From positions 27,964 to 91,963 of the forward strand of contig JAISIZ010000108.1 of the NCBI GenBank assembly GCA_031261785.1: a DNA stretch of 64,000 bases, written 5' to 3'. Shown here piece after piece: positions 2,511 to 30,325 of this stretch. Numbering within the stretch: the stretch's first letter is position 1; every line of letters starts with the position of its first letter. The position numbers and the translations under genes are program-made. Source of the DNA: Mediterranea sp. (in: CFB group bacteria) (GTDB lineage: Bacteria; Bacteroidota; Bacteroidia; Bacteroidales; Bacteroidaceae). The notes beneath the pieces were generated by a model that saw nothing but the letters and a program-made list of their open reading frames with translations, did not search any database and was not told the origin of the DNA.

Positions 2511-5500
2511 TCAAAATCCTAAATTCACGCCGAACATGAATGTCCGGGGTTGCGGGTAGTTGAACCATTGCTCTCCGCTGGCTCCCACGCTGCTGGGGTC
2601 GAATCCCCGGTAATTGCTGGCGGATACGGTGTAGAGGTTCTCCAGGTTGGCGAAGAATCGGCAGTTCTGGATGAAGACTTTCTCCAGCACCTCTTTGGGC
2701 AGGCTGTATCCTATGGAGATGGATCGTATCTTGAGGTAATCGGCGTCCATGAGGAAACGCGACGAGGCCTTGTCGGCGTTGGTGGCGGTGGTCGTCACGC
2801 GCGGCACGTCGGTGATGTCGCCCGGTTGGCGCCAATGGTTGTCGTACACGTACCGCGAATAGTTCTGGTAGAACGACGTTCCCGTCTGCTCCCTGTACCG
2901 CAGGCTGTTGCCATAAATCTTTCCGCCGAGCGAATAGTTGAGTTGCAGGCCGAAATCGATCCCTTTCCACTTCAGCGTGGTGTTGAACGAGCCGGCGAAA
3001 TCGGGCAGCGGGCTGCCGAGGTAGCGTTTCGTGGCGGCGTTGTAATTGGTCGTCGTCTCGTCGCCGGTGGCGTTCTTGTACCACATGGCGGCGCCCGTCT
3101 GGGGATCCACGCCCGCATATTCCTTCATCTTGAACTGTCCGATGGGATAGCCCACTTCGGTAATCTGGTAAGTTCCCTCAATGGGGTTGTCGGTGCTCAG
3201 CTTCTCCACCTTGTTCTTGTTCACCGCCCCGCTGAGGGTGGCGTCCCATTTCCAGTCCTTGTTCCGTATCAGCACGGCGTTGATCGAGGCCTCGAATCCT
3301 TTGTTGGACAGCTTGCCGATGTTGCGGTAGTAGGACTTCAGGCCGGTGGTCATCGAGAGGGGGACGTTGAACACCATGTCGCGTGTTTGGTGATTGTAGT
3401 AGTCCAACGTGATGTTGACGCGATTGAACAAGCTGATGTCGAGGCCCACGTTGAACTTGCCCGTCTGCTCCCATTTCAGGTCGTCGTTGCCGAATTGGGA
3501 GTGTCCCATGCCCGGAAGATTGTTGTAGACATATCCGAAGTTGAACAGGTCGCGCGCCGCGTACCACGAGTCCGATCCCGTGGCGCCCACTTCCTGGTTG
3601 CCCGACGTACCGTAGCTCGCGCGTATGGTGAGGTTGGTCAGCCAGTTTTGCGTCGTCTCCATGAATTTCTCGGCCGTGAGGCGATACTTGGCTCCCACCG
3701 ACCAGAAGGGTGCCCAGCGGTGGTTGCTTCCGAAGCGCGACGAGCCGTCGTAACGGAAGCTTCCCGAAACGTAGTACTTGTCGTCGTAGTCGTACTGCGC
3801 GTTGGCGAAGTAGGAGTTGAGCACCAGGTCGTACCGCTCTGTCGACGCGCTTCCGGGCACTGCCGTGAGGCCCACCTCATTGAGGTTTTCCACCGGATAG
3901 TTGGTGCCGGCGAGGTAGGCTACCTTCTTCATCGTCTTGATGCCCTCCTGCCCTATCAGGAAGTTGACGTGATGATGTTCGTTGAAGGTGTCGATGTAGT
4001 TCAGCGTGTTGGTGATGCTCAGCTGTAGGTTCGAGGTGTTGGTGTCCTCGCCCATGCCTCGCATCTCGTTGCCTTGCGGTTGTAGGAACGACCAGTATCC
4101 AAACTCGTCGACGAAGAGCAGGTCGACGCTGGCGCGGGTCATCCACGTCAGCTTCTTCGTGAAGTTGATCTGCAGATAGGGCGCTATGATGGCCCTGTAC
4201 TGTTTGGACGTGTTCTTGTCTCCATCCTCGCTTCTCATGGCGACGGGGTTGTAGCCTCCCTGCGAGGTGTCGAAGTTCCATTCCCCTTCGGGCGTCTTCA
4301 CGGGGGTGAGCGGATTCATCATTGAGGCGATGGTGATGGGGTCGGTGAAGTATCCTCCGCCCGCGCCCATCTCGGTCTTGGTGTACGAGAGGTTGGAGTT
4401 CACCCCGTATTTCACGTACCTGGAAGGCTCGTGCTCGAGGTTGGTACGGAAAGCGTAGCGCGTAAGTCCCTTGCCGATGACCATCGCGTCCTCGTTCATG
4501 TAATCCAGCGACACGTAGTACTTGGGCGCGTTGTTGGAGCTTCCTCCCCCGCTCACGTCGAATCCGTATTCCTGTACCAGTCCGCTGCGGGTCACCGCCT
4601 TGGTCCAGTCGGTGTCGTACCCGTACTTCTCGGCGGCCGATACCCATCCCTCGGTGTACCAGTCGTAGAAGTTTTTGGCTCCGGCCTTGTCGTAGGCGAA
4701 GCCCAAGCCATATCCTTCGTTATACATGCCGAATACGGAGGAAGCTCCCCTGTCGGCGTATCCGTTGAGCAACGCCTCGGTGACCATGTCGATGTTTTGC
4801 TCGGCGTTGGTCTGCTTGAAGCGGTCCGTATAGGAGGGCATCGTCTCCACGCCCAGCTTGGCGGTGAAGTTCACCCGGGGCTTTCCGGAGGCTCCCTTCT
4901 TGGTGGTGATCACGATCACGCCGTTGGCCGCGCGCGAACCATAGATGGAGGTCGCGGTGGCGTCCTTGAGCACGGTCACGCTCTCGATATCGTTGGCGTT
5001 GAGCGAGGCTAAGGGCGAAACCGTTACGCCCTCGCTGGCCCTCATTCCCACGGCGTCGGCGAAATAGCTCACTCCGTCCACCACGTAGAGGGGTTGCGTA
5101 CCCGAGTTCAGCGAATTGCGGCCTCGGATATAGATGTCGGCAGGCGCGCCGGGTTGTCCGCTGGTCATGCTCATTTGCAAGCCCGGCACGGCGCCGTCGA
5201 GCGCCTTGATGGGGTTGGCGTCGTGTTTGCTCTCCATGACGGAGTTATCGAGCGTGGCGGCAGCCCCCGTGAAGGCGGCCTTGCGCGTCACGCCGTAGCC
5301 TGTTATTATGACCTCGTTCAACGCCTTGGCGTCGGAGGCCAGCGTAACCTTCAGGGTAGGTTTGATAGCCACTTCTTGCGCGGTCATGCCGATGTACGAT
5401 ATACGTAGCGTCTTGGCGGTGGCTGGCAGGTTCGTAAGGGAGAAGTTCCCGTCGATGTCGGTGATCGTGCCCAGCGTGGTGCCTGTTACCAGCACCGACG

Positions 5501-5624
5501 CGCCCACGATAGGTTGCCCGTCGTCGGCCGAGAACACCTGGCCGGTGACTTTCTGTGTTTGGGCGTAGAGTTGGCTCAAACCCGCTAACAGGCAAGCCAA
5601 CAGCAACATTACTTTTCTCATCAT
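2511..5624 (-). CDS. SusC/RagA-family TonB-dependent outer membrane transporter
   Basis: 1037 aa with carboxypeptidase-like N-terminal domain, plug motif (VLKDATATSIYGSRAANGVIVITTKKG), C-terminal GVNLGF. Confidence 0.95.
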   Translation of the reverse strand: MMRKVMLLLACLLAGLSQLYAQTQKVTGQVFSADDGQPIVGASVLVTGTTLGTITDIDGNFSLTNLPATAKTLRISYIGMTAQEVAIKPTLKVTLASDAKALNEVIITGYGVTRKAAFTGAAATLDNSVMESKHDANPIKALDGAVPGLQMSMTSGQPGAPADIYIRGRNSLNSGTQPLYVVDGVSYFADAVGMRASEGVTVSPLASLNANDIESVTVLKDATATSIYGSRAANGVIVITTKKGASGKPRVNFTAKLGVETMPSYTDRFKQTNAEQNIDMVTEALLNGYADRGASSVFGMYNEGYGLGFAYDKAGAKNFYDWYTEGWVSAAEKYGYDTDWTKAVTRSGLVQEYGFDVSGGGSSNNAPKYYVSLDYMNEDAMVIGKGLTRYAFRTNLEHEPSRYVKYGVNSNLSYTKTEMGAGGGYFTDPITIASMMNPLTPVKTPEGEWNFDTSQGGYNPVAMRSEDGDKNTSKQYRAIIAPYLQINFTKKLTWMTRASVDLLFVDEFGYWSFLQPQGNEMRGMGEDTNTSNLQLSITNTLNYIDTFNEHHHVNFLIGQEGIKTMKKVAYLAGTNYPVENLNEVGLTAVPGSASTERYDLVLNSYFANAQYDYDDKYYVSGSFRYDGSSRFGSNHRWAPFWSVGAKYRLTAEKFMETTQNWLTNLTIRASYGTSGNQEVGATGSDSWYAARDLFNFGYVYNNLPGMGHSQFGNDDLKWEQTGKFNVGLDISLFNRVNITLDYYNHQTRDMVFNVPLSMTTGLKSYYRNIGKLSNKGFEASINAVLIRNKDWKWDATLSGAVNKNKVEKLSTDNPIEGTYQITEVGYPIGQFKMKEYAGVDPQTGAAMWYKNATGDETTTNYNAATKRYLGSPLPDFAGSFNTTLKWKGIDFGLQLNYSLGGKIYGNSLRYREQTGTSFYQNYSRYVYDNHWRQPGDITDVPRVTTTATNADKASSRFLMDADYLKIRSISIGYSLPKEVLEKVFIQNCRFFANLENLYTVSASNYRGFDPSSVGASGEQWFNYPQPRTFMFGVNLGF

Positions 5625-5892
5625 AAACTAAAAAAACTCTCAAAAGTTAGACTTCACATTTGTTTATTGTACCTAATCATTGGATATAGAGCGGACAAGG
5701 CGTTTAGGGTAACCTCTGTCCACTATTTTATTCCTATCGGGGCGCGAAATTAGGCATCCGCGCCGAAAAAAACAATTTTTCAGTTAAGAAAGCTCGCTTA
5801 TATGACAAATTGTAAGCGCTCCGGCCCGTTTTTTGGCGATATTGGAAGATTTCACTTCACCGGAGCTCCCCTGCCCGCCTCCGGGCTGACGA

Positions 5893-6825
5893 TTACACTT
5901 CGCTGGGGCTTATGCCGAATTGTTTCTTGAAGACGGTGCTGAAATACTTGGAATCCACGAAGCCTACCTCGCGCGCCGCCTCGCCAACGAGATACTGGCG
6001 GGTGAGCAGCAATTCCCTGGCCTTGTTGAGCCTGACGATGCGGACAAACTCGTTGGGCGTCTGCCCCGTAAGATTCTTTATCTTGTTGAAGATGGCCGTG
6101 CGGCTCATCCCCATCCGCCGTCCCAGTTCGGCGATGGAGAGTTCGGGATTGCCGATGTTCTGGTGGATGGTATCGATGACCTGGTCCAGGAACTCGCGGT
6201 CGAGCGTGGTGGTATCCAATTCGGCGGCGTCGGCGGGTTCGTCGGCGGCGAGCAGGGTGTGCCGCAGGCGTTGCCGGTTGGCGAGGATGCTCCGCAGGCG
6301 CGCCTTGAGCACGGCGAGGTCGACGGGCTTCACGATGTAGTCGGTGGCTCCGGCCTCGAGGCCGTGTACGATGTCGACGCTCTCGCCCAGTCCGCTCAGC
6401 AACACGACGGGTATGTGGCTGGTCTCTATGTCGCCCTTCAGGGCACGGCACAGCTCGTCGTTGCGCGAGTCGCCCCGCGGTGTCATGCCGAGCACGGCGA
6501 TGTCGGGATTGGCCTCGCGGGCCAGCTCCAGCACGTCGCGCGCGGTGCGGGCCACGCGCAGGCCGAACTCCCCGTCCAGCGCGTCGGCGAGCCGCCCGCG
6601 CAAGTCGTCGTCGCTCTCTATCAATAATAAGGTATTCACGGAGGGGCCGGGAAGCGCGTCGGGTTCATCGTCCTCCTCCTTCGCCATGGACGTGACGGTC
6701 CGCGGCCCGCGCAGGCGGCGCAATTCCCGCCTCGCGCGCCAGAGGGCGAACGAAAGCCAGAGGATAACGAGCGAAGCGGCGGCGAGGGCCGCGAGCGTCA
6801 AGGTGTCTTTTTCATACAAAATCAT
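5893..6825 (-). CDS. Membrane-anchored regulator: TM segment + degenerate receiver domain + AraC-type HTH
   Basis: N-terminal TM (TLAALAAASLVILWLSFALW), REC-like domain (TLLLIESDDDLR...VVLLSG...DYIVKPVDLAVLKARL), C-terminal AraC HTH (SIAELGRRMGMSRTAIFNKIKNLTGQTPNEFVRIVRLNKA...GFVDSKYFSTVFKKQFGISPSEV). Confidence 0.88.
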   Translation of the reverse strand: MILYEKDTLTLAALAAASLVILWLSFALWRARRELRRLRGPRTVTSMAKEEDDEPDALPGPSVNTLLLIESDDDLRGRLADALDGEFGLRVARTARDVLELAREANPDIAVLGMTPRGDSRNDELCRALKGDIETSHIPVVLLSGLGESVDIVHGLEAGATDYIVKPVDLAVLKARLRSILANRQRLRHTLLAADEPADAAELDTTTLDREFLDQVIDTIHQNIGNPELSIAELGRRMGMSRTAIFNKIKNLTGQTPNEFVRIVRLNKARELLLTRQYLVGEAAREVGFVDSKYFSTVFKKQFGISPSEV

Positions 6826-6909
6826 CCGTCAGGAAGGGTTGTTTCCAAAAGGTTGGGTGGTTCTTTTCACAGCCCGAAAATAGAAGAAGAAAATGACCCG
6901 CGCAAGCGT

Positions 6910-6989
6910 TTGTACGATTTCAAACCATTTTTGTACGATTGTCCCCCATCGCTGTACGATTTCAAACCATATTGTACGATTTCAAACCT
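6910..6989. promoter_or_regulatory. Four-copy direct-repeat operator-like array (TTGTACGATTTCAAACC)
   Basis: TGTACGAT begins at 6911, 6932, 6953 and 6973; three of four copies continue as TTCAAACC; lies in the divergent intergenic region. Confidence 0.85.
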
Positions 6990-7071
6990 CCTTTCTCGCG
7001 AAAAGCGCGTATCATTGTACCCATGAAATCACTAAGAAACCACCATCGTAAAACCATCAACCAATATAAGC

Positions 7072-8010
7072 ATGGAAACATACATCGGAATTGATTTGGG
7101 TGGCACGAAGCTACTCATTGGCGAGATCGACAGCCACGGGAATATCCTGCGGTACAAGAAGTACGAATCCGCCTTCTTCAACCAGCACGACGCCGTGAAC
7201 ATCATCAAGGCGTCGCTGGACGACTACATCGGCACCGTAGGCTGGTACGAGAAGAAACCGCTGGCCATGGGCGTGGGACTGATAGGGCGCGTGGACACCA
7301 AGAACGGCATCTGGCTACAGATCGACCCGGGGCGCACGCACCCCATCAACCTCGCCGAGGAACTCTCGGGCGCCTACGGCATGCCCTGCCACATCGACAA
7401 CGACGTGAAGAGCGCCACCCGCGCCGAGAGGGTGTGGGGCTTCGGTCTCATCACCCGCAACTTCGTCTATATTAATATAGGTACAGGCATAGCCGCGGGC
7501 ATGGTGGTCAACGGACGGCAGATCCGCGGCAGCCATTGCAACGCCGGCGAGGTGGGACACATACGCGTCGGCGTGGGCGTGGGCGTGCGCTGCTCGTGCG
7601 GCAAGATCGATTGCGTGGAAGCCATCGCCTCGGGCATCGGCTTCGACCAGTGCGCGAGGCTTCTGGCCGACCGCTACGAGACGCAGCTCGAGATACCCGA
7701 CAGCGACGAGCGCGTACCCACCGCCGAAATATTCGCCCTGAGCAAGAAAGGCGACCCGCTATGCGTCAAGCTGGTGGAGAACGCCGCCGAGGCCATCTCG
7801 AACCTCATCATGAACATGGTGCGTATGTGCGACCCCGACGCCGTGGTGCTGGGCGGAGGCGTGGTGGCCGACGGCTACCTGCACTCCAAGGTGCTCGAGC
7901 GACTGCATCCCACCACCATGCGCTTCGTGCAGAACGAGGTCGTCATCACGAAGTTGAACCCCGACTTTATCGGATTGCTCGGCGCCGGCGCCGTGGCCAT
8001 GGGAAAGTGA
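7072..8010 (+). CDS. ROK-family sugar kinase/regulator-like protein
   Basis: GIDLGGTK phosphate-binding motif, ROK zinc motif CSCGKIDCVE. Confidence 0.9.
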   Translation: METYIGIDLGGTKLLIGEIDSHGNILRYKKYESAFFNQHDAVNIIKASLDDYIGTVGWYEKKPLAMGVGLIGRVDTKNGIWLQIDPGRTHPINLAEELSGAYGMPCHIDNDVKSATRAERVWGFGLITRNFVYINIGTGIAAGMVVNGRQIRGSHCNAGEVGHIRVGVGVGVRCSCGKIDCVEAIASGIGFDQCARLLADRYETQLEIPDSDERVPTAEIFALSKKGDPLCVKLVENAAEAISNLIMNMVRMCDPDAVVLGGGVVADGYLHSKVLERLHPTTMRFVQNEVVITKLNPDFIGLLGAGAVAMGK

Positions 8011-8014
8011 CGCG

Positions 8015-8731
8015 ATGATAACGATTGCCGATACCGAACAAGCGTTCGACCGCCAAGCCGCCAGCCGCGTCGTCGAGCAGATATGCCGCAAGCCCGATTC
8101 TGTTGTCGGACTGTCGACGGGACAGACCACGAAGGGCATGCACCGCCTGCTCACGGAAGCCTACCGGGCGGGCAGATTCGACCCGTCGCGCGTCACCTTT
8201 TTCGGCGTGGACGAGGTGGTGAACGTGCCGCGCTCCTACGCCGGGTCGTGCTACACCCTGCTGCGCACCGAGCTGATGGACGCGCTGGAGGTCCCCGACG
8301 AACGGTTCCTCATGTTGCCCGTCGAACCCGAGCGGTTCGAGGACGGCGCCATAGCCTTCCAGGCGGAGCTGAAGCGACGCGGGGGCATCGACCTCCTCGT
8401 GCTGGGGTTGGGACGCAACGGGCATCTCGGCTTCAACCAGCCCGGCACGCCTTTCAACTCGGTGACGCGCCTGGCGCGGATGGACGAGGAACTCGAGGCG
8501 CGCATACGCCGCGAGACAGGCATCGCCCCGCAAGTGAAGCTCTTCGGCGCCACGCTGGGGCTGAAAGACATCATGCATGCCCGCGCGCTGCTGCTCACCG
8601 CCAAGGGAGAGTGCAAGGCGGACATCGTGAAGCGGATGCTCGAGGGCGACATCAGTCCCGACGTGCCCGCCTCCATCCTCCAGCTACACCCCAATTGCGA
8701 ATTCCTGCTGCAAGCCGACGCCACACCCTAA
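8015..8731 (+). CDS. Glucosamine-6-phosphate deaminase/isomerase-like (NagB family)
   Basis: GLSTGQTTKGMH, FFGVDEVV, LGLGRNGHLGFNQPG motifs of the NagB family. Confidence 0.8.
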   Translation: MITIADTEQAFDRQAASRVVEQICRKPDSVVGLSTGQTTKGMHRLLTEAYRAGRFDPSRVTFFGVDEVVNVPRSYAGSCYTLLRTELMDALEVPDERFLMLPVEPERFEDGAIAFQAELKRRGGIDLLVLGLGRNGHLGFNQPGTPFNSVTRLARMDEELEARIRRETGIAPQVKLFGATLGLKDIMHARALLLTAKGECKADIVKRMLEGDISPDVPASILQLHPNCEFLLQADATP

Positions 8732-8751
8732 AACAGAAATACGCCCAACCC

Positions 8752-10023
8752 ATGAAAACAAATCCAGAGACATCCACCAGCTACGTAGGGCCGTTCCTTA
8801 CGATGGTTTTCCTATTCCTCGTGGTGGGATTCCTCACCACCGCCAACACCCAGTTCCAGGGACCCCTCAAGGCGACGTTCCTGGCCGAGGTGGGCGACCT
8901 GAAGAACACGTTCGCCACGCTCATCACCTTCTCCTGGTTCCTGGCCTATCCGCTCTGCGGCGGGTTGGGGGCACGGTGGGTCAACCGGGCGGGCTACAAA
9001 GTCACGCTCATGCGCGGCCTGCTGGTCATGGTGGCCGGCCTGCTGCTCTTCTTCGCCTCGTCGTGGTTCACGGTGCGTTTCCCCGAGGCGGGCCTCACCG
9101 CGGGCGAGAGCGTACGTGTGCCCTACGGCTTCCTCATCTTCCTGGCCGGCTCGTTCGTCGTGGGCGCGTCGGCTACCATCCTCCAGGTGGTGATCAACCC
9201 CTACCTCACCGCCTGCTACGTCAAAGGTACGCAACCCGTGCAACGGCTCGCCATCGGCGGCACGGCCAACTCCATAGGCACCACGCTGGCGCCCTACTTC
9301 GTCACGGGCGTCGTGTTCGGCGGCCTGTCGATGGAGCGCATCGCCATCAGCCAGCTCATGCTGCCGTTCCTGGCGCTGGCCCTCGTCATCGGCTGCGTCT
9401 GGCTGGGACTCATGGCCGTGAAGCTGCCCAACATCGAGGGCACGCGGGCCGACGGCGACGAGCGGCTGGAGCGCAGCGTATGGTCGTTCCGCCACCTCAC
9501 GCTGGGCGTGGTGGCCATCTTCTGCTACGTGGGCGTGGAGGTGTGCATAGGCGCCAACATCAACCTGTACGCCATCGAGCTGGGTCGGGCCGGACAAGCG
9601 GCGCTGATGGCCACCCTCTACTGGGGCGGCATGCTCGTGGGGCGGCTGGTGGGCAGCTCCCTCGCGCGCGTCACGCCCCGCACGCAGCTCACCGTCACCA
9701 CGGTGGTGGCCACCCTGCTGGTGGCCGTCGCCGTGACGCTCGACAACCCGTGGGTGCTCGTCGCCGTGGGGCTGTTCCACTCCATTATGTGGGGCGCCAT
9801 CTTCACCCTCTCCACCACGGGGCTGGGCAAGTACACCTCGGCGGCTTCGGGCGTGTTCATGATCGGCGTGGTGGGCGGCGCCGCGCTGCCGTTGGCGCAA
9901 GGCGCCATCGCCGACGCCGCCGGAGGCTGGCGCTGGTCGTGGCTGCTGGTCATCGCCGGCGAACTCTTCATGCTGTGGTACGCCCGCCAGGGAAGCCGCG
10001 TCCATCCTTCGTCAAACCCCTAA
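8752..10023 (+). CDS. MFS sugar transporter, FucP-like
   Basis: Multi-TM protein starting MKTNPETSTSYVGPFLTMVFLFLVVGFLTTANTQFQGPLK; the longer upstream ORF extension overlaps the NagB-like gene and is rejected. Confidence 0.85.
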   Translation: MKTNPETSTSYVGPFLTMVFLFLVVGFLTTANTQFQGPLKATFLAEVGDLKNTFATLITFSWFLAYPLCGGLGARWVNRAGYKVTLMRGLLVMVAGLLLFFASSWFTVRFPEAGLTAGESVRVPYGFLIFLAGSFVVGASATILQVVINPYLTACYVKGTQPVQRLAIGGTANSIGTTLAPYFVTGVVFGGLSMERIAISQLMLPFLALALVIGCVWLGLMAVKLPNIEGTRADGDERLERSVWSFRHLTLGVVAIFCYVGVEVCIGANINLYAIELGRAGQAALMATLYWGGMLVGRLVGSSLARVTPRTQLTVTTVVATLLVAVAVTLDNPWVLVAVGLFHSIMWGAIFTLSTTGLGKYTSAASGVFMIGVVGGAALPLAQGAIADAAGGWRWSWLLVIAGELFMLWYARQGSRVHPSSNP

Positions 10024-10039
10024 AATCTTCTTCCCCATT

Positions 10040-11806
10040 ATGAAACGATTCACTTACCTCACCCTCTTACTCATCGCCCTCGCCCTCGCGGCCTGCGGCG
10101 GTACCCGGAGCGGCGTGCGGAGCGCCGGGGCACTGCCGCCGGTAGCCACGCCCGAACCCCAACCGGTGGTGGTGGCCTACGTCACCTCGTGGAGCGGCGA
10201 AATGCCCGATCCGCAATACATGACGCACATCAACTACGCCTTCGGGCACGTCAGCGAGACGTTCGACGGCGTACGCGTAGACAACGGGGCGCGCCTCCAC
10301 CAAATCGTCGCCCTCAAACAGCGGAAACCCGCGCTCGTCGTCATGCTATCCATCGGCGGATGGGGCAGCGGACGATTCAGCGAGATGGCGGCGAGCGACG
10401 CCAACCGGCAATCCTTCGCCGCCGATTGCCAACGCGTGGTGAACGAGTTCGGGCTGGATGGCATCGACATCGACTGGGAATACCCCACGAGCCGGGCCGC
10501 CGACATATCCGCCTCGCCCGACGATACGAAGAACTTCACGCTGCTGATGCGCGACATACGCGCCGCCATCGGTCCCGACAAATGGCTCACGCTGGCCACC
10601 GTGGCGGGAGCGCGCTACATCGACTTCAAGGGCATTGACCCCTACGTGGACCTCGTCAACGTGATGTCGTACGACATGGCCAGCGCACCCAAGCACCACT
10701 CGGCCCTCTATCCGTCGGACCATAGCGGCGGAATCACCACCGACGAGGCCGTGAAGGCGCACCTCGCCGCGGGCGTGCCGCGCGCGAAGCTGGTGGTGGG
10801 CATGCCCTTCTACGGACGGGGAGGCAAGCTCACGCCACGCGGGTTCGACATGTGGAAAGCCGCCGAATCGCCCCTGTTCATCCCCCGGTGGGATCGCGTG
10901 GGCAAGGTGCCTTTCTTCGAGAACAAGGACAACATCTTCGTGATGGGCTACGAGAACGCCCGCTCGCTCGCCATCAAGTGCGAGTACGTCAAGTCGCACG
11001 GACTGCGAGGCGCCATGTACTGGAGCTACGACGGCGACAACGACCGGAACGAGCTGCGAGCCACTCTGCGACAGGCCATCATCGAGGGGAAGAGCTTCGC
11101 CGACCAGGATCCGCGCCCCATGCGCGTGCTCGTCATCGCCGAGAACGGCGGACACCACGTGCCCTTCAGCAACGCCGGCCTGCGCTGGCTGGAACGCCTC
11201 GGCGAACGCTACAACCTCGACTTCACCCGCGTCACCAACGCGCGGCCTATCGTCAACGACGACTACCTGGCGCAGTTCGGACTCATCGTCCAGCTCGACT
11301 TCGTGCCCTACACCTGGCCCGAGGAGGCGCAACGGGCTTTCATCAAATACATCGACGAGGGACGGGGCGCCTGGATAGGGTTCCATCACGCCACGCTGCT
11401 GGGCAACTTCGACGGCTACCCGATGTGGCCCTGGTTTTCGGACTTCATGGGCGGCATCACGTATCGTAACTACATCGCCCCGCTGGCCACCGGAACGGTG
11501 CGCGTGGAGGACGCCACGCACCCGGTGATGAAAGGCGTGCCCGCGCGGTTCGATATCCCCGACGACGAGTGGTACACGTTCGACAAGTCGCCCCGCCCCA
11601 ACGTGCGCGTGCTGGCCAATGTCGACGAAAGCTCGTACACGCCCGCGTCGGACATCAAGATGGGCGACCACCCCGTGGTGTGGACCAACGAGAGCAAACG
11701 GGCGAAGAATGTCTACTTCCTCTTCGGCCACAGCCCGAAGCTGTTCGACGTCGACGCCTTCACCACGATGTTCGAGAACGCCATCCGCTGGACAACCAAC
11801 CGGTAA
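10040..11806 (+). CDS. Lipoprotein: GH18 (chitinase-like) domain fused to a C-terminal ThuA-like domain
   Basis: Lipobox LALAACGG; GH18 motif DGIDIDWEYP; C-terminal half (RVLVIAENGGHHVPFSNAGLRWLERLGE...GAWIGFHHATL...WTNESKRAKNVYFLFGHSPKLFD) resembles ThuA/trehalose-utilisation domain. Confidence 0.85.
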   Translation: MKRFTYLTLLLIALALAACGGTRSGVRSAGALPPVATPEPQPVVVAYVTSWSGEMPDPQYMTHINYAFGHVSETFDGVRVDNGARLHQIVALKQRKPALVVMLSIGGWGSGRFSEMAASDANRQSFAADCQRVVNEFGLDGIDIDWEYPTSRAADISASPDDTKNFTLLMRDIRAAIGPDKWLTLATVAGARYIDFKGIDPYVDLVNVMSYDMASAPKHHSALYPSDHSGGITTDEAVKAHLAAGVPRAKLVVGMPFYGRGGKLTPRGFDMWKAAESPLFIPRWDRVGKVPFFENKDNIFVMGYENARSLAIKCEYVKSHGLRGAMYWSYDGDNDRNELRATLRQAIIEGKSFADQDPRPMRVLVIAENGGHHVPFSNAGLRWLERLGERYNLDFTRVTNARPIVNDDYLAQFGLIVQLDFVPYTWPEEAQRAFIKYIDEGRGAWIGFHHATLLGNFDGYPMWPWFSDFMGGITYRNYIAPLATGTVRVEDATHPVMKGVPARFDIPDDEWYTFDKSPRPNVRVLANVDESSYTPASDIKMGDHPVVWTNESKRAKNVYFLFGHSPKLFDVDAFTTMFENAIRWTTNR

Positions 11807-25219: not shown

Positions 25220-25558
25220 ATGGCAACCGACAAAGAGCAACTTCATCAACTGGGACGCTTCACATTCAATGTACGTCAATACACGCTTCGCGACAATCAT
25301 ACCGGGAGCGTCCAGCCATTGACGTCCATAACGACGCGAATACTCCGGACGCTCTGCACCCACAAGAACGGAGTAGTGCGACGGGATGTACTCATTCACC
25401 AAATATGGGGCGGCAAAGTCGACCGCGATTCCGCCTCACGCCGCCTGGATGTTTTCGTCCACAAACTACGTGGATATATCCAATCCGATCCCAGCTTGCG
25501 AATACAGACGCTTCGAGGCATCGGGCTGAAATTGGTGGAGGAGAATGCGGAAAAATAA
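25220..25558 (+). CDS. Stand-alone OmpR/PhoB-type winged-helix DNA-binding protein
   Basis: 112 aa: ITTRILRTLCTHKNGVVRRDVLIHQIWGGKVDRDSASRRLDVFVHKLRGYIQSDPSLRIQTLRGIGLKL; no receiver domain. Confidence 0.8.
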   Translation: MATDKEQLHQLGRFTFNVRQYTLRDNHTGSVQPLTSITTRILRTLCTHKNGVVRRDVLIHQIWGGKVDRDSASRRLDVFVHKLRGYIQSDPSLRIQTLRGIGLKLVEENAEK

Positions 25559-26134: not shown

Positions 26135-26362
26135 ATGACGATGAATATAAAGACCTTTGCCTCCATGTTTATCTTCTCCGCACTGACCTTTACGAGCTGT
26201 GCGGATAAAGTTCCCGTTGTTCGCTACGATGGCACTTTCGGAGAGGCGTTGTCGTACGCCCAAGAGTTCGACAAACCTCTGTGCGTCGTTCTCATGGATT
26301 CTATCTGGCGGATTTCCAAAGAAATGCATGGGATTGCCCAAGACCTCCTTGACAGCTTATGA
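26135..26362 (+). CDS. Truncated lipoprotein, possibly thioredoxin-like remnant
   Basis: Lipobox SALTFTSC; YAQEFDKPLCVVLMDSIW; ends abruptly at the repeated boundary AGCTTATGAAATTCACCGTACTAA. Confidence 0.5.
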   Translation: MTMNIKTFASMFIFSALTFTSCADKVPVVRYDGTFGEALSYAQEFDKPLCVVLMDSIWRISKEMHGIAQDLLDSL

Positions 26363-26871
26363 AATTCACCGTACTAAGCATCAACAAGATGCCGTTCTAT
26401 ATCCCGCAATCGGATGTTGGGTTCATCAGTATCTATCAGAATTACGAAGGAACCCAAATAGAATGCTTTTGCAAAAAAGAACGGAAACACCGAAAGATGA
26501 AGCTGAACGAAGTCGTGGAGATAGAGCTTATGGCCATCAACGCCGAGCTTAATCCATCGGTGTTCAAATGGGCACATTCCACATTCATTTCGCCCCAATT
26601 GGACGAGCGTGAGTGCGAGGGCTTTGAGATATTCGTGCGCGGCAAGACGTTTTACATCCCGTTCCAAGAGGTAGGAGGAGCAGCCTGCTTCCTGATAACG
26701 GTTACCAAAGACAAAGTCGAAATCAGCATAAGCGGTATGACAAAAGACATCCTCATGCTTGATTATTATCGCGCCGAGATGGAAATCGGACAACACATAA
26801 GCGTGGCGTACACGCACCTAAAAAAGATCACCGAGCCATCGCGCAAGCGCCGGTACTTAGAAGAGCCATAA
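26359..26871 (+). CDS. Unknown protein with two copies of a small beta-rich domain (array gene 1)
   Basis: INKMPFYIPQSDVGFISIYQNYEG... and VRGKTFYIPFQEVGGAACFLITVTKD...EMEIGQHISVAYTHL appear to be an internal duplication. Confidence 0.7.
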   Translation: MKFTVLSINKMPFYIPQSDVGFISIYQNYEGTQIECFCKKERKHRKMKLNEVVEIELMAINAELNPSVFKWAHSTFISPQLDERECEGFEIFVRGKTFYIPFQEVGGAACFLITVTKDKVEISISGMTKDILMLDYYRAEMEIGQHISVAYTHLKKITEPSRKRRYLEEP

Positions 26872-26885
26872 ATACCATCCAGCTT

Positions 26886-27206
26886 ATGCAGTGCATTGAA
26901 ATCACCTACCGAGGCGACATCTCCTACATCCCTCTCGAGAAAGGCGCCTTATTGACGATTACCATCAATTGGATGCCTCCCTATATGTTCGTGCAGAACC
27001 ATCGTTACGAAGACGAGAACAGTAACTATTGGCATGAAATGGCACCGATCGAATTGGGAGGAACAGTGATTATGAAAAGGGTGGAAAGCGACGTGACCAC
27101 TCCTCCCCAGAAGGTCGAGGCGACGTACAAGATGCATACTCCTCCTTCGGAGCTGGAACTTTTTCGCTCCATCGAAGCATACGTGAAAGAACAAGGATGG
27201 ATATGA
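26886..27206 (+). CDS. Unknown small protein (array gene 2)
   Basis: YRGDISYIPLEKGALLTITIN... pattern shared with neighbours; C-terminal SELELFRSIEAYVKEQGWI. Confidence 0.7.
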   Translation: MQCIEITYRGDISYIPLEKGALLTITINWMPPYMFVQNHRYEDENSNYWHEMAPIELGGTVIMKRVESDVTTPPQKVEATYKMHTPPSELELFRSIEAYVKEQGWI

Positions 27207-27535
27207 AAGGATTAGTATTGGAAATAGGCGGACAACGCTTCGTCGGCCGCGAGACGGATTTTCCCGGACTGATCATCACCAACAAAGAGGATCCGGAGGA
27301 ATACCGGGTCCTCTTCAGCGGAATGAACGCCGACAGTTCGGTATTCTATCACTGGTACGGCCAGCCGCTCGAAGAGGGCGAAGTGCTGCGAATAAGCTAC
27401 CAGGAGATCGGCGAAGCCGAGAGTTCCACCCCGATAAGCATTCGGGACACGAGAGACAAGGAGCAAGAAAAGCGATTGATTCTGGAGAATTACTACCGAC
27501 TGAAGGAAAAACTCACCAAAGAAGGAAAGATATGA
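27203..27535 (+). CDS. Unknown small protein (array gene 3)
   Basis: ATGA overlap with gene 2; W.GQPLEEGEVLRISYQEIGEAESSTP; C-terminal LILENYYRLKEKLTKEGKI. Confidence 0.7.
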   Translation: MKGLVLEIGGQRFVGRETDFPGLIITNKEDPEEYRVLFSGMNADSSVFYHWYGQPLEEGEVLRISYQEIGEAESSTPISIRDTRDKEQEKRLILENYYRLKEKLTKEGKI

Positions 27536-27843
27536 TTGGACTTAAAGTACAAATCAATGACGAGGAACCTGTCGTAGCAGTGACCGAATCCCTTGTTCTC
27601 ATCTTAGATTATGCAAGCTATATAGAGAGCGGACATCTCTATTTGGGAGGTACTGACAGGGACTATTATAGACCGAAATGGATCGACCAAAACTTAAATC
27701 TCGGCGACAAAATCAGCGTGAAGGTAGTGGACACGGAAACGACATCCCCCACCCTTAGCGCGGAGGCTATCGACCGCCTCGAGCTGATGCAGGATTTCGA
27801 GAAACTTCGCAAAGAACTTATCCGGAAAGGAGCCATACAATGA
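27532..27843 (+). CDS. Unknown small protein (array gene 4)
   Basis: ATGA overlap; KWIDQNLNLGDKISVKVVDTETTSPT; C-terminal LMQDFEKLRKELIRKGAIQ. Confidence 0.7.
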   Translation: MIGLKVQINDEEPVVAVTESLVLILDYASYIESGHLYLGGTDRDYYRPKWIDQNLNLGDKISVKVVDTETTSPTLSAEAIDRLELMQDFEKLRKELIRKGAIQ

Positions 27844-28193
27844 TCGGGTTCATCGTTAAATCAAAGAACGGGATATGCCGGGTAGGCATTCCCGTCGAAT
27901 CCGTTGTAGACATGGTAGCCAACGTTTTGGCCTATCGGCAAAACTGGATCCTTGGAGGAATGGAACGCTCGGGGGAGAAACATTTCGCTTGGCCAGGCGG
28001 TGATCTTGAGGTTGGCGACGAGTTCGAGATAGAAATCGCCGAATTCGACGAAGCCTCCGAGCCTATCGACCAAACAGGATGGACACCGCCAGTGATTGAT
28101 GAAGCTGAAATATTGGAAGGACAATTGATACGCTACCGCGAACTGAAAAGAGTGTTGACGGCGGAAGGGTTTCTCAAGGAGGAGAGCTTATGA
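27840..28193 (+). CDS. Unknown small protein (array gene 5)
   Basis: ATGA overlap; AWPGGDLEVGDEFEIEIAEFDEASEPI; C-terminal LEGQLIRYRELKRVLTAEGFL. Confidence 0.7.
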   Translation: MIGFIVKSKNGICRVGIPVESVVDMVANVLAYRQNWILGGMERSGEKHFAWPGGDLEVGDEFEIEIAEFDEASEPIDQTGWTPPVIDEAEILEGQLIRYRELKRVLTAEGFLKEESL

Positions 28194-28337
28194 AATTCAC
28201 CGTACTAAACATCAACAAGATGCCGTTCTATATCCCGCGAACGGACGTTGGAATTTCCAATCAATATTTGGCACAACTATGAAGGAGATAGAAGTTCGGG
28301 CTTTTGTAATCATGTTTTGCGTGCGGAGAAAAAATGA
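28190..28337 (+). pseudogene. Truncated, frameshifted second copy of array gene 1
   Basis: atgaaattcaccgtactaaacatcaacaagatgccgttctatatcccgcgaacggacgttgg closely matches 26359-26420; after a frameshift NIWHNYEG aligns with SIYQNYEG. Confidence 0.85.
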
Positions 28338-28710
28338 ACGGTTAAATACGCGGCGCGGATTTCTTCGCCAGAATCTGGAATGTTAATTGTTGGATGCGGA
28401 TTTCTTCTCCGGAAAATGAGATGTTAAATACGCGGCGCGGATTTCTTCGCCAGAATTTGAAATGTTAATTGTTGGGCGCGGATTTCTTCTCTGGAAAATG
28501 AGATGTTAAATACGCGGCGCGGATTTAACCATCGAAAATCAAATGATAAAATCCGCGGGCGCGGATCACGTCTCCAAAAATTTTTGATTACATCCGCGGG
28601 CGCGGATCGCGTCTCCAGATTTTTTTGAAGAAATATGCAGGTGCGGATTGCGTCTACAGAATCTGATGGGCAAATCCGTGAGTGCGGATTCGTCTACAGA
28701 AATTTTCGGG
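28321..28710. repeat. Tandem array B, 9 units of 41-42 bp plus a partial unit
   Basis: 'gcgga' at 28355,28396,28437,28478,28519,28561,28602,28643,28684; partial 'gcgga' at 28323. Confidence 0.93.
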
Positions 28711-28735
28711 TCAATACGCGTCCCGCGTATTGACC
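28709..28735. terminator. Perfect 12-bp hairpin, possible terminator
   Basis: GGTCAATACGCG tcc CGCGTATTGACC between convergent transcription units. Confidence 0.6.
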
Positions 28736-29017
28736 TTTCGCCATGCAAACCACATATTGCAAGCTGCTATCGTTGTCAAGCATTTGATTAATCAAGTCGC
28801 TCCCTTCTTCCTTGATAAGTTCGGTGTTTATGCAATCTCGGTAATATGCAATCTGTTCTCCGATGAGTAACGAACACAAATCGTAAGCGAGCCAATAGGC
28901 ACCAGCTACATACCTATCAAAAGCCTTCATGCCATACACTTCCGGATGAACTTTTCTGTCCATATTGGCATCGAAATAGTTATACCTCGTGCGGAGTAAT
29001 TTTGTGCAATGATTTTT

Positions 29018-29089
29018 TAGACACTGATGACACGGATGACACGGATTTATATATTTTAGATCCGTGTTATCCGTGTCATCAGCGTCTAA
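29018..29089. repeat. Palindromic element of the 'gacacggat' type
   Basis: tagacactgatgacacggatgacacggat...atccgtgttatccgtgtcatcagcgtcta. Confidence 0.85.
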
Positions 29090-29308: not shown

Positions 29309-30325
29309 TCACTTGATATGCTTAAATCCATGTTCGGCTATTCTTTGTGCGGCTTCAAGGCTTCGGCTCTCACCGCTACCCATCAAATCGGCGTATATTA
29401 ATAGTATAGGGGCAATGTTACTCTCGGCATCCCACGTCCAGAACCTCTGGTAGATGCGTATCTCACCTCCGTCATCAGGCATTACATAGCCGGTTTTCAG
29501 CAGGTTTGCCGTTGGAATAGAAGTATAGACATCAAAACTACCTGGTTCCAAATAGCCATCCAACAGAGAGGCACCACTTTCACCTCCCCAACACATACCT
29601 ATGGGCAAAGCAATCTCTGCCCACTTCTTTTTATGTTCGATATCACGAAAGGTCATCTCGCCCATCCATAGCTTGGGCTTTAGCACTTGGTTGAAACTCA
29701 TTACCCATTGGTCTAACAGTTTTTTCTTGTTCTTTAAGAAACGCCCTCGCTCCGAGATAAGCACATACCGTTGGGCAACCAGTTCCTCAATGACATTCTT
29801 GACAGTCCCCAAAGATACACCCGTGTTTTCTTGAATCACCCGATAGGGCTTGTTTACGTGAGTGTCATCTTGCAACAGGTAGAATATCACTTTTATGCCT
29901 GCATCTTGAAAAGCCGGCTGAGTTCGTTCTTTCGTAAACACATTCTTCTCTCCCTTATTGGAGAGTTGAAATATCATCTGTCCGCCTTTCATATAACGGA
30001 TGTGGCAATTACCTGCACAGTCCAATACATTCAGATTGTTGAGAATAGCTTGCTCCATGATCGCAGGATTGATATATTTGGTGACCAGCAATACGGGGCG
30101 TGTCTCACCTTCCTGCATAGCATGTATCGCATTCAATGTCCAATTAAAAGTCACGTTATTTAGCAAGCCTATGATGGTACACGCAAAATCGACCCCCATA
30201 ATTCCTACTACCACGTCAAAAGCACCTCTATCTGCTTCCGATTGCACCATAGCGTCAGGGCAGGCAAACTTCTCTTTCAGTGTGCCTAACGCTTTATTTA
30301 GTATTTCCAAATATGTCAGTTTCAT
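29309..30325 (-). CDS. AbiEi-family type IV antitoxin-like protein
   Basis: 338 aa; NVLDCAGNCHIRYMKGGQMIFQLSNKGEKN; winged-helix-like KPYRVIQENTGVSLGTVKNVIEELVAQRYV. Confidence 0.75.
   Translation of the reverse strand: MKLTYLEILNKALGTLKEKFACPDAMVQSEADRGAFDVVVGIMGVDFACTIIGLLNNVTFNWTLNAIHAMQEGETRPVLLVTKYINPAIMEQAILNNLNVLDCAGNCHIRYMKGGQMIFQLSNKGEKNVFTKERTQPAFQDAGIKVIFYLLQDDTHVNKPYRVIQENTGVSLGTVKNVIEELVAQRYVLISERGRFLKNKKKLLDQWVMSFNQVLKPKLWMGEMTFRDIEHKKKWAEIALPIGMCWGGESGASLLDGYLEPGSFDVYTSIPTANLLKTGYVMPDDGGEIRIYQRFWTWDAESNIAPILLIYADLMGSGESRSLEAAQRIAEHGFKHIK

Follow-up and report, generated by a model that had tools for sequence, protein, structure and literature searches.

A candidate polyimmunity locus in Mediterranea sp.: an array of overlapping, divergent paralogues from an undescribed protein family that probably forms heterodimers

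Within a 64,000-nt stretch of contig JAISIZ010000108.1 from Mediterranea sp. (hereafter "the window", meaning that whole stretch), we characterized a compact cluster of five small genes, g1 to g5. Open reading frame (ORF) analysis confirmed that all five are intact, start where the initial annotation had placed them, and lie on the same strand (+) across positions 26359–28193. The cluster and its boundaries comprise the following features:

26141–26362, + strand: g0, 73-aa ORF of a truncated lipoprotein, overlapping g1 by ATGA
26351–26420, + strand: 70-nt direct repeat, copy 1, covering the g1 start and 93% identical to 28182–28251
26359–26871, + strand: g1, 170 aa; each half predicted as six-stranded, C-terminal helix absent; C-terminal half assigned to the family by profile (3e-8)
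26886–27206, + strand: g2, 106 aa, type A; profile 1e-7; clade A support 98/98 and 100/99
27203–27535, + strand: g3, 110 aa, type B; profile 1e-19; clade B support 98/97; six predicted strands and a C-terminal helix
27532–27843, + strand: g4, 103 aa, type C; profile 7e-17; tree support 70/18, then 94/87
27840–28193, + strand: g5, 117 aa, type E; profile 1e-16; tree support 95/94; 39% identical to a B. finegoldii protein (2e-6)
28182–28251, + strand: 70-nt direct repeat, copy 2, 93% identical to copy 1
28190–28330, + strand: g6, frameshifted 5′ remnant of a second gene of the g1 type, in ATGA overlap with g5
28331–28718, no strand assigned: 41-nt tandem-repeat array at which the g6 remnant stops, with no known link to the function of the gene array

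The ATGA overlaps originally described as joining g2–g5 and a truncated sixth gene were all recovered (g2/g3, g3/g4, g4/g5, and g5/remnant at 28190), another joins g0 to g1 (26359), and the g1–g2 junction is a 14-nt gap without overlap. The sixth gene exists and is ATGA-joined as reported, but rather than a family gene proper it is a pseudogene of the g1 5′ end, 93% identical to g1 over 70 nt, frameshifted after that, and then cut off by the 41-nt tandem repeats. The ATGA-coupled truncated lipoprotein gene g0 upstream of g1 is an addition to the earlier account: it encodes a lipoprotein-type signal, its ORF, which precedes g1, ends within copy 1 of the 70-nt repeat, and it is similar to the N-terminus of a Trx/DUF1573 lipoprotein adjoining a related array in another genome, G1300 (local score equalled by 1–4 of 1000 shuffles). 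Because scars flank both ends, this suggests that recombination has shortened or shuffled the window array.

Several other elements were observed around the cluster. The 41-nt array, whose start coincides exactly with the end of the g1 remnant, has a consensus that includes GCGCGGATTTCTTC, and no further copy of its core motif was found within the window. An inverted repeat at 29017–29089 (33-nt arms, 91% complementary, 7-nt loop) contains GATGACACGG-like units, and an AbiEi_2-type regulator/antitoxin gene (29309–30325, − strand; PF09952, 3e-22) has no recognized AbiEii partner adjoining it. Upstream of the array, positions 25220–25558 encode an orphan OmpR-type winged-helix domain of 112 aa without a receiver domain; since this domain is ubiquitous in the genus, we rejected the ORF as a marker of the locus.

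The products of g1–g5 form one shared domain family. Pairwise local alignments yielded z-scores of 6.0–6.3 among g3, g4, and g5, and of 4.6 for g2–g4. A family hidden Markov model (HMM) trained solely on sequences from outside the window recovered g3 (1e-19), g4 (7e-17), g5 (1e-16), the C-terminal half of g1 (3e-8), and g2 (1e-7), with the best of 2000 shuffled control sequences reaching an E-value of about 2. The proposal that the five small genes share one domain is thus upheld by homology above chance. None of the five proteins matched a Pfam or NCBIfam model at E-values up to 1, a PADLOC model at E-values up to 0.01, or any curated immunity-family model, and PHROGs returned a single fragment match at 0.022. 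As suspected from the outset, this is an undescribed family, with a domain of about 100–117 aa, and it is recurrent in Bacteroidota.

In the best AlphaFold2 model of g3 (made with seven sequences; pLDDT 82.5, pTM 0.62), strands were predicted at residues 2–8, 11–16, 21–26, 35–41, 47–55, and 62–68, followed by a seventh, short strand and, at residues 84–106, a helix. The g1 model (pLDDT 80.9 overall, pTM 0.77) consists of two six-strand runs, mutually offset by 84–94 residues and joined by a poorly predicted linker, with both halves mostly at about 87–94 pLDDT and without the C-terminal helix. Confidence varies across the five models per protein, from 82.5 down to 60.8 for g3, so both predicted folds are provisional. 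The g1 model looks like two sheet copies within one chain, which supports the earlier guess of an internal duplication: at the sequence level the duplication is invisible (z-score of only 1.7 for half against half, and no match of the N-terminal half to the outside-trained HMM), but the predicted structure has the same six-strand layout twice. The g3 layout of six strands therefore recurs twice in g1, and the predicted folds are not unrelated. A structure search found no PDB or viral fold at E ≤ 0.001, and a sequence search of the PDB yielded nothing significant, with weak S1-domain matches at 0.4–0.5; accordingly, we did not adopt an OB- or PH-fold reading.

Next, we compared the window genes with relatives from other genomes (designated here by working identifiers) in a maximum-likelihood tree, run twice, the second time with more sequences. 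The tree placed g2 in clade A (98/98; 100/99 with more sequences), g3 in clade B (98/97; 98/95), g4 in clade C (70/18; 94/87), and g5 in clade E (95/94; 94/80), i.e., the window genes group with different partners in other genomes, while type D was made up of G295_8 and the second gene of the G1257 pair (95/88). Individual placements are less sure than the clades because terminal branches are long. Across genomes, types follow a fixed order of A–B and C–D/E: g2–g5 read A-B-C-E, the G295 genes C-E, A-B, and A-B-C-D-E, those of G244 A-B, those of B. finegoldii C-E, and those of G1257 C-D. The A>B junction is a 4-nt overlap in four of four cases, and the C>D/E junctions measure −4, −4, −4, −1, and +9 nt (a 4-nt overlap in three of five). 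Between pairs, junctions are mostly gaps (298, 76, 49, 85, and 199 nt, and 2 nt once), the B>C overlap in the window being the exception. This co-translation and constancy of partners point to A–B and C–D/E heterodimers, and the fused g1 would be the form expected of a joined pair. The pair structure, along with the linked ATPase described below, is beyond what a plain bank of copies predicts and was missed by the initial annotation; the paired design appears new.

Besides the window, the family was detected at 14 further Bacteroidota loci, which are sporadic and mostly contain coupled pairs. The full set of 15 loci comprises the window, G295, G1217 (degraded), G244, L040, a B. finegoldii plasmid (L002), G1257, G1300, G1247, G455, G424, G368, G1149, G1121, and G1198, and leaves out marginal matches in G365, G454, and G722. 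With g3 alone as query, a single genome out of 61 drawn mainly from the genus of the window contained the family. It was found in 3 of 295 genomes of the order, 6 of 395 of the class, and 6 of 398 in a phylum sample; of two taxonomic families, one had it in 5 of 149 genomes and the other in 3 of 125. A genome scan with g1 alone recovered no relative. The number of members per genome ranges from one to nine, with nine in one distant genome, and all matches in the genome of the window (G000) fall at the single locus. This sporadic distribution led us to reject a housekeeping operon. There was likewise no evidence of a phage origin, since viral contigs gave no match with types B, E, and one C-type relative, phages gave no family match, and among plasmids the family was found only in the B. 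finegoldii record. In L040, which comes from a roe deer rectum MAG of the Bacteroidales, one A–B pair has a frameshift in its A gene (9692–10327) and an intact B partner.

The truncated g0, the frameshifted g6, and the repeat array at the ends of the cluster, along with degraded members in G1217, G1247, and L040, could indicate that the window array is a decaying relic without present function. We hold this to be highly improbable, as g1–g5 are intact, the overlaps are kept, and the family profile is retained across large divergence.

Some gene neighborhoods point elsewhere, namely to the NVEALA and fulvocin C-related secreted-peptide loci of Bacteroidales, for which the pairs could be accessory or maturation proteins acting as cytosolic chaperones or regulators. 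The neighborhood of the B. finegoldii pair includes a gene related to fulvocin C and genes for TlpA, DUF1573, and an O-antigen ligase, a G1247 member adjoins a propeller protein 2.3 kb from an NVEALA gene, the G1257 pair adjoins an O-antigen ligase (its neighbors also include discoidin), and the G1300 quartet adjoins the Trx/DUF1573 lipoprotein that g0 resembles. The array relatives in L002 and L082 are part of NVEALA or fulvocin C-related loci (PF14055, NF033852), in which a gene for a secreted, Cys-containing peptide is accompanied by Trx/DUF1573 lipoprotein, O-antigen-ligase, or propeller genes, and this gene set is also partly present in L080 and L081. In contrast, the window has at most the truncated lipoprotein g0, and family members are found well away from such loci too, those in G295, G244, G424, G368, and G1121 lacking any of these genes. 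Moreover, NVEALA is often present in the genus where the family is absent, and the sole NVEALA match of G000 is on a separate contig, so that we rejected NVEALA co-occurrence as a family marker because it is not specific. If the peptides are bacteriocins, immunity genes would be expected in the same loci regardless, and overall we consider an accessory role in peptide loci unlikely. In L002, two genes that lie between the C-E pair and the gene related to fulvocin C each occur twice, one for a secreted protein (5472–6254 and 7835–8491) and one for a small membrane protein (6711–6983 and 8545–8817).

A second recurrent neighbor is an AAA_21-type ATPase, of which close homologues lie directly downstream of family members in G295, G1217, G1247, G1121, and G1198. 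Among 50 genomes, which were not randomly chosen, it was present in 5 of 13 with the family vs none of 37 without, and it weakly matches defence ATPases including MAD3, AriA, and PtuA. The family and this ATPase might together constitute a defence module (e.g., anti-phage) in which the array proteins serve as sensors or restraints of the ATPase, with the window retaining the array part only. However, 10 of the 15 loci, including the window, have no ATPase beside the array (and a search of G000 at E 1e-20 found none), PADLOC models match none of the family members, and MAD3/AriA/PtuA-type models are matched by AAA_21 ATPases of many functions, which together make such a module distinctly unlikely in our estimation.

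At two loci, family members adjoin a lipoprotein with a toxin-like C-terminus. In G455, three members lie 3′ of a lipoprotein ORF whose linker is rich in Gly and whose C-terminal region is hydrophobic and toxin-like; the gene looks frameshifted because its last part lies in another frame. The C-terminal region of a G1198 lipoprotein is similar to that of G455 (E 5e-5) and ends in a Cys-rich tail. The G1198 locus contains, in order, the full lipoprotein gene, a TPR-like gene, a stray C-terminal cassette (71% identical to the C-terminus of the full-length gene upstream), a family member, and the ATPase. Polymorphic toxin loci usually consist of a full gene, an immunity gene, a stray cassette, and a second immunity gene (PMC3482391), a layout that G1198 shares if the TPR-like gene and the family member are taken as candidate immunity genes. 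The toxin-like C-terminus has no Pfam or NCBIfam match, and it was absent from G000 and found only in G455 within the class sample. As first reported, no toxin gene was found in the window. We rejected a 314-aa lipoprotein in L081 as a relative of the G455/G1198 toxin, as it has no similarity to it. The TPR-like gene adjoining the toxin-like lipoprotein in G1198 is duplicated in G1121 and represents a candidate immunity family itself; the weakly related proteins (E 3e-5) are encoded at 4913–5596 of L069 and at 6865–7563 and 7614–8147 (−) of L068, and have no Pfam match.

We then compared the array with known toxin-free immunity gene clusters. Homogeneous polyimmunity loci, as described by Zhang et al. 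2012 (PMC3482391), are tandem arrays of tightly spaced, same-strand, distantly related paralogues, free of toxins and variable in content between genomes, usually with one such locus per genome, and proteins with multiple copies of a domain occur there too. The window array likewise comprises tightly spaced, distantly related paralogues in tandem on one strand, with no room for a toxin gene between g1 and g5, matches in G000 at one place, and a number and type of members that vary between genomes. It differs from the homogeneous loci named in that survey (SUKH, Imm6, 11, 28, 33, 36, 41) in that its family has no Pfam model, and ordered co-translated pairs are not among the published features considered here. 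No recombinase was recognized by eye in the ORF list of the window, a nearby recombinase being a feature of some polyimmunity loci only. The rAID systems of gut Bacteroidales (PMC12247911) are also arrays of orphan, divergent immunity-like genes without a toxin; unlike these, the window array contains no T6SS-type immunity gene (g1–g5 having no Pfam match), and as curated models did not match either, we filed it neither as a rAID system nor as a curated immunity family. It further lacks SUKH and all other known immunity domains as well as any link to type VI effectors, and the recombinase associated with rAID systems was not recognized by eye among the ORFs of the window. In the esaG, tsaI, and tipC immunity strings of Firmicutes (PMC9484751), non-identical paralogues undergo loss and expansion by recombination, and the 70-nt repeat and g1 remnant of the window form a similar scar, whereas the proteins are unrelated, the phylum is another, there is no type VII secretion, and the types in the window array follow a fixed order.

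Taken together, the interpretation that we favor, at somewhat better than even confidence, is that of a homogeneous polyimmunity locus whose immunity proteins belong to an undescribed family and probably work as heterodimers. The array would be a bank of one cytosolic domain, a predicted six-stranded sheet with a C-terminal helix, in which type A members may have type B members as partners, and type C members those of type D or E. The two proteins of a pair, translated from overlapping genes, would associate into a heterodimer able to capture and neutralize a toxin delivered by a rival bacterium. In g1, a single chain with two sheet domains but without the helix, the two partners would be covalently fused, and the window bank would guard against toxins absent from its own genome. 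The tandem, same-strand, tiny-spaced genes with no toxin between them, at a single locus and with one to nine members per genome, parallel published polyimmunity features, and the sporadic distribution, the toxin-like neighbors in G455 and G1198, and the A>B and C>D/E overlaps are consistent with this interpretation. Against it, toxin-like neighbors occur at only 2 of the 15 loci and the toxin itself is a putative one with no counterpart in the genome of the window, the TPR-like gene is equally placed as an immunity candidate in G1198, and neither the type order kept across families nor the ATPase downstream in five loci is needed by a simple immunity bank. The resemblance to an immunity bank noted at the outset therefore holds for the shared domain, the recurrent arrays, and the two toxin-adjacent loci, but does not account for the pairs, their order, or the ATPase. 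Unrelated folds, or homologues never found in arrays or beside toxins, had been named as outcomes that would count against it; instead, the domain is shared, arrays recur elsewhere, and two loci have a toxin-like lipoprotein. We also entertain the unlikely extension that A–B and C–D/E are obligate heterodimers, with six-stranded halves that combine into a larger sheet on the model of the fused g1, and that with the AAA ATPase they constitute an unrecognized Bacteroidota conflict system in which ordered subunit pairs, rather than single immunity proteins, recognize incoming toxins or phage.

Overall, this is a real, undescribed family within a known kind of arrangement. For this recurrent family of Bacteroidota, the analysis provides a profile, a division into types, and a fold prediction, together with a partner structure that can be tested. 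The usual picture in the field is one immunity protein per toxin. If the immunity function is true, the family would add a two-subunit, paired design to this picture, and would point to a matching family of lipoprotein toxins with a Cys-rich C-terminus. Orphan immunity banks of this kind influence which bacteria survive contact with their rivals.
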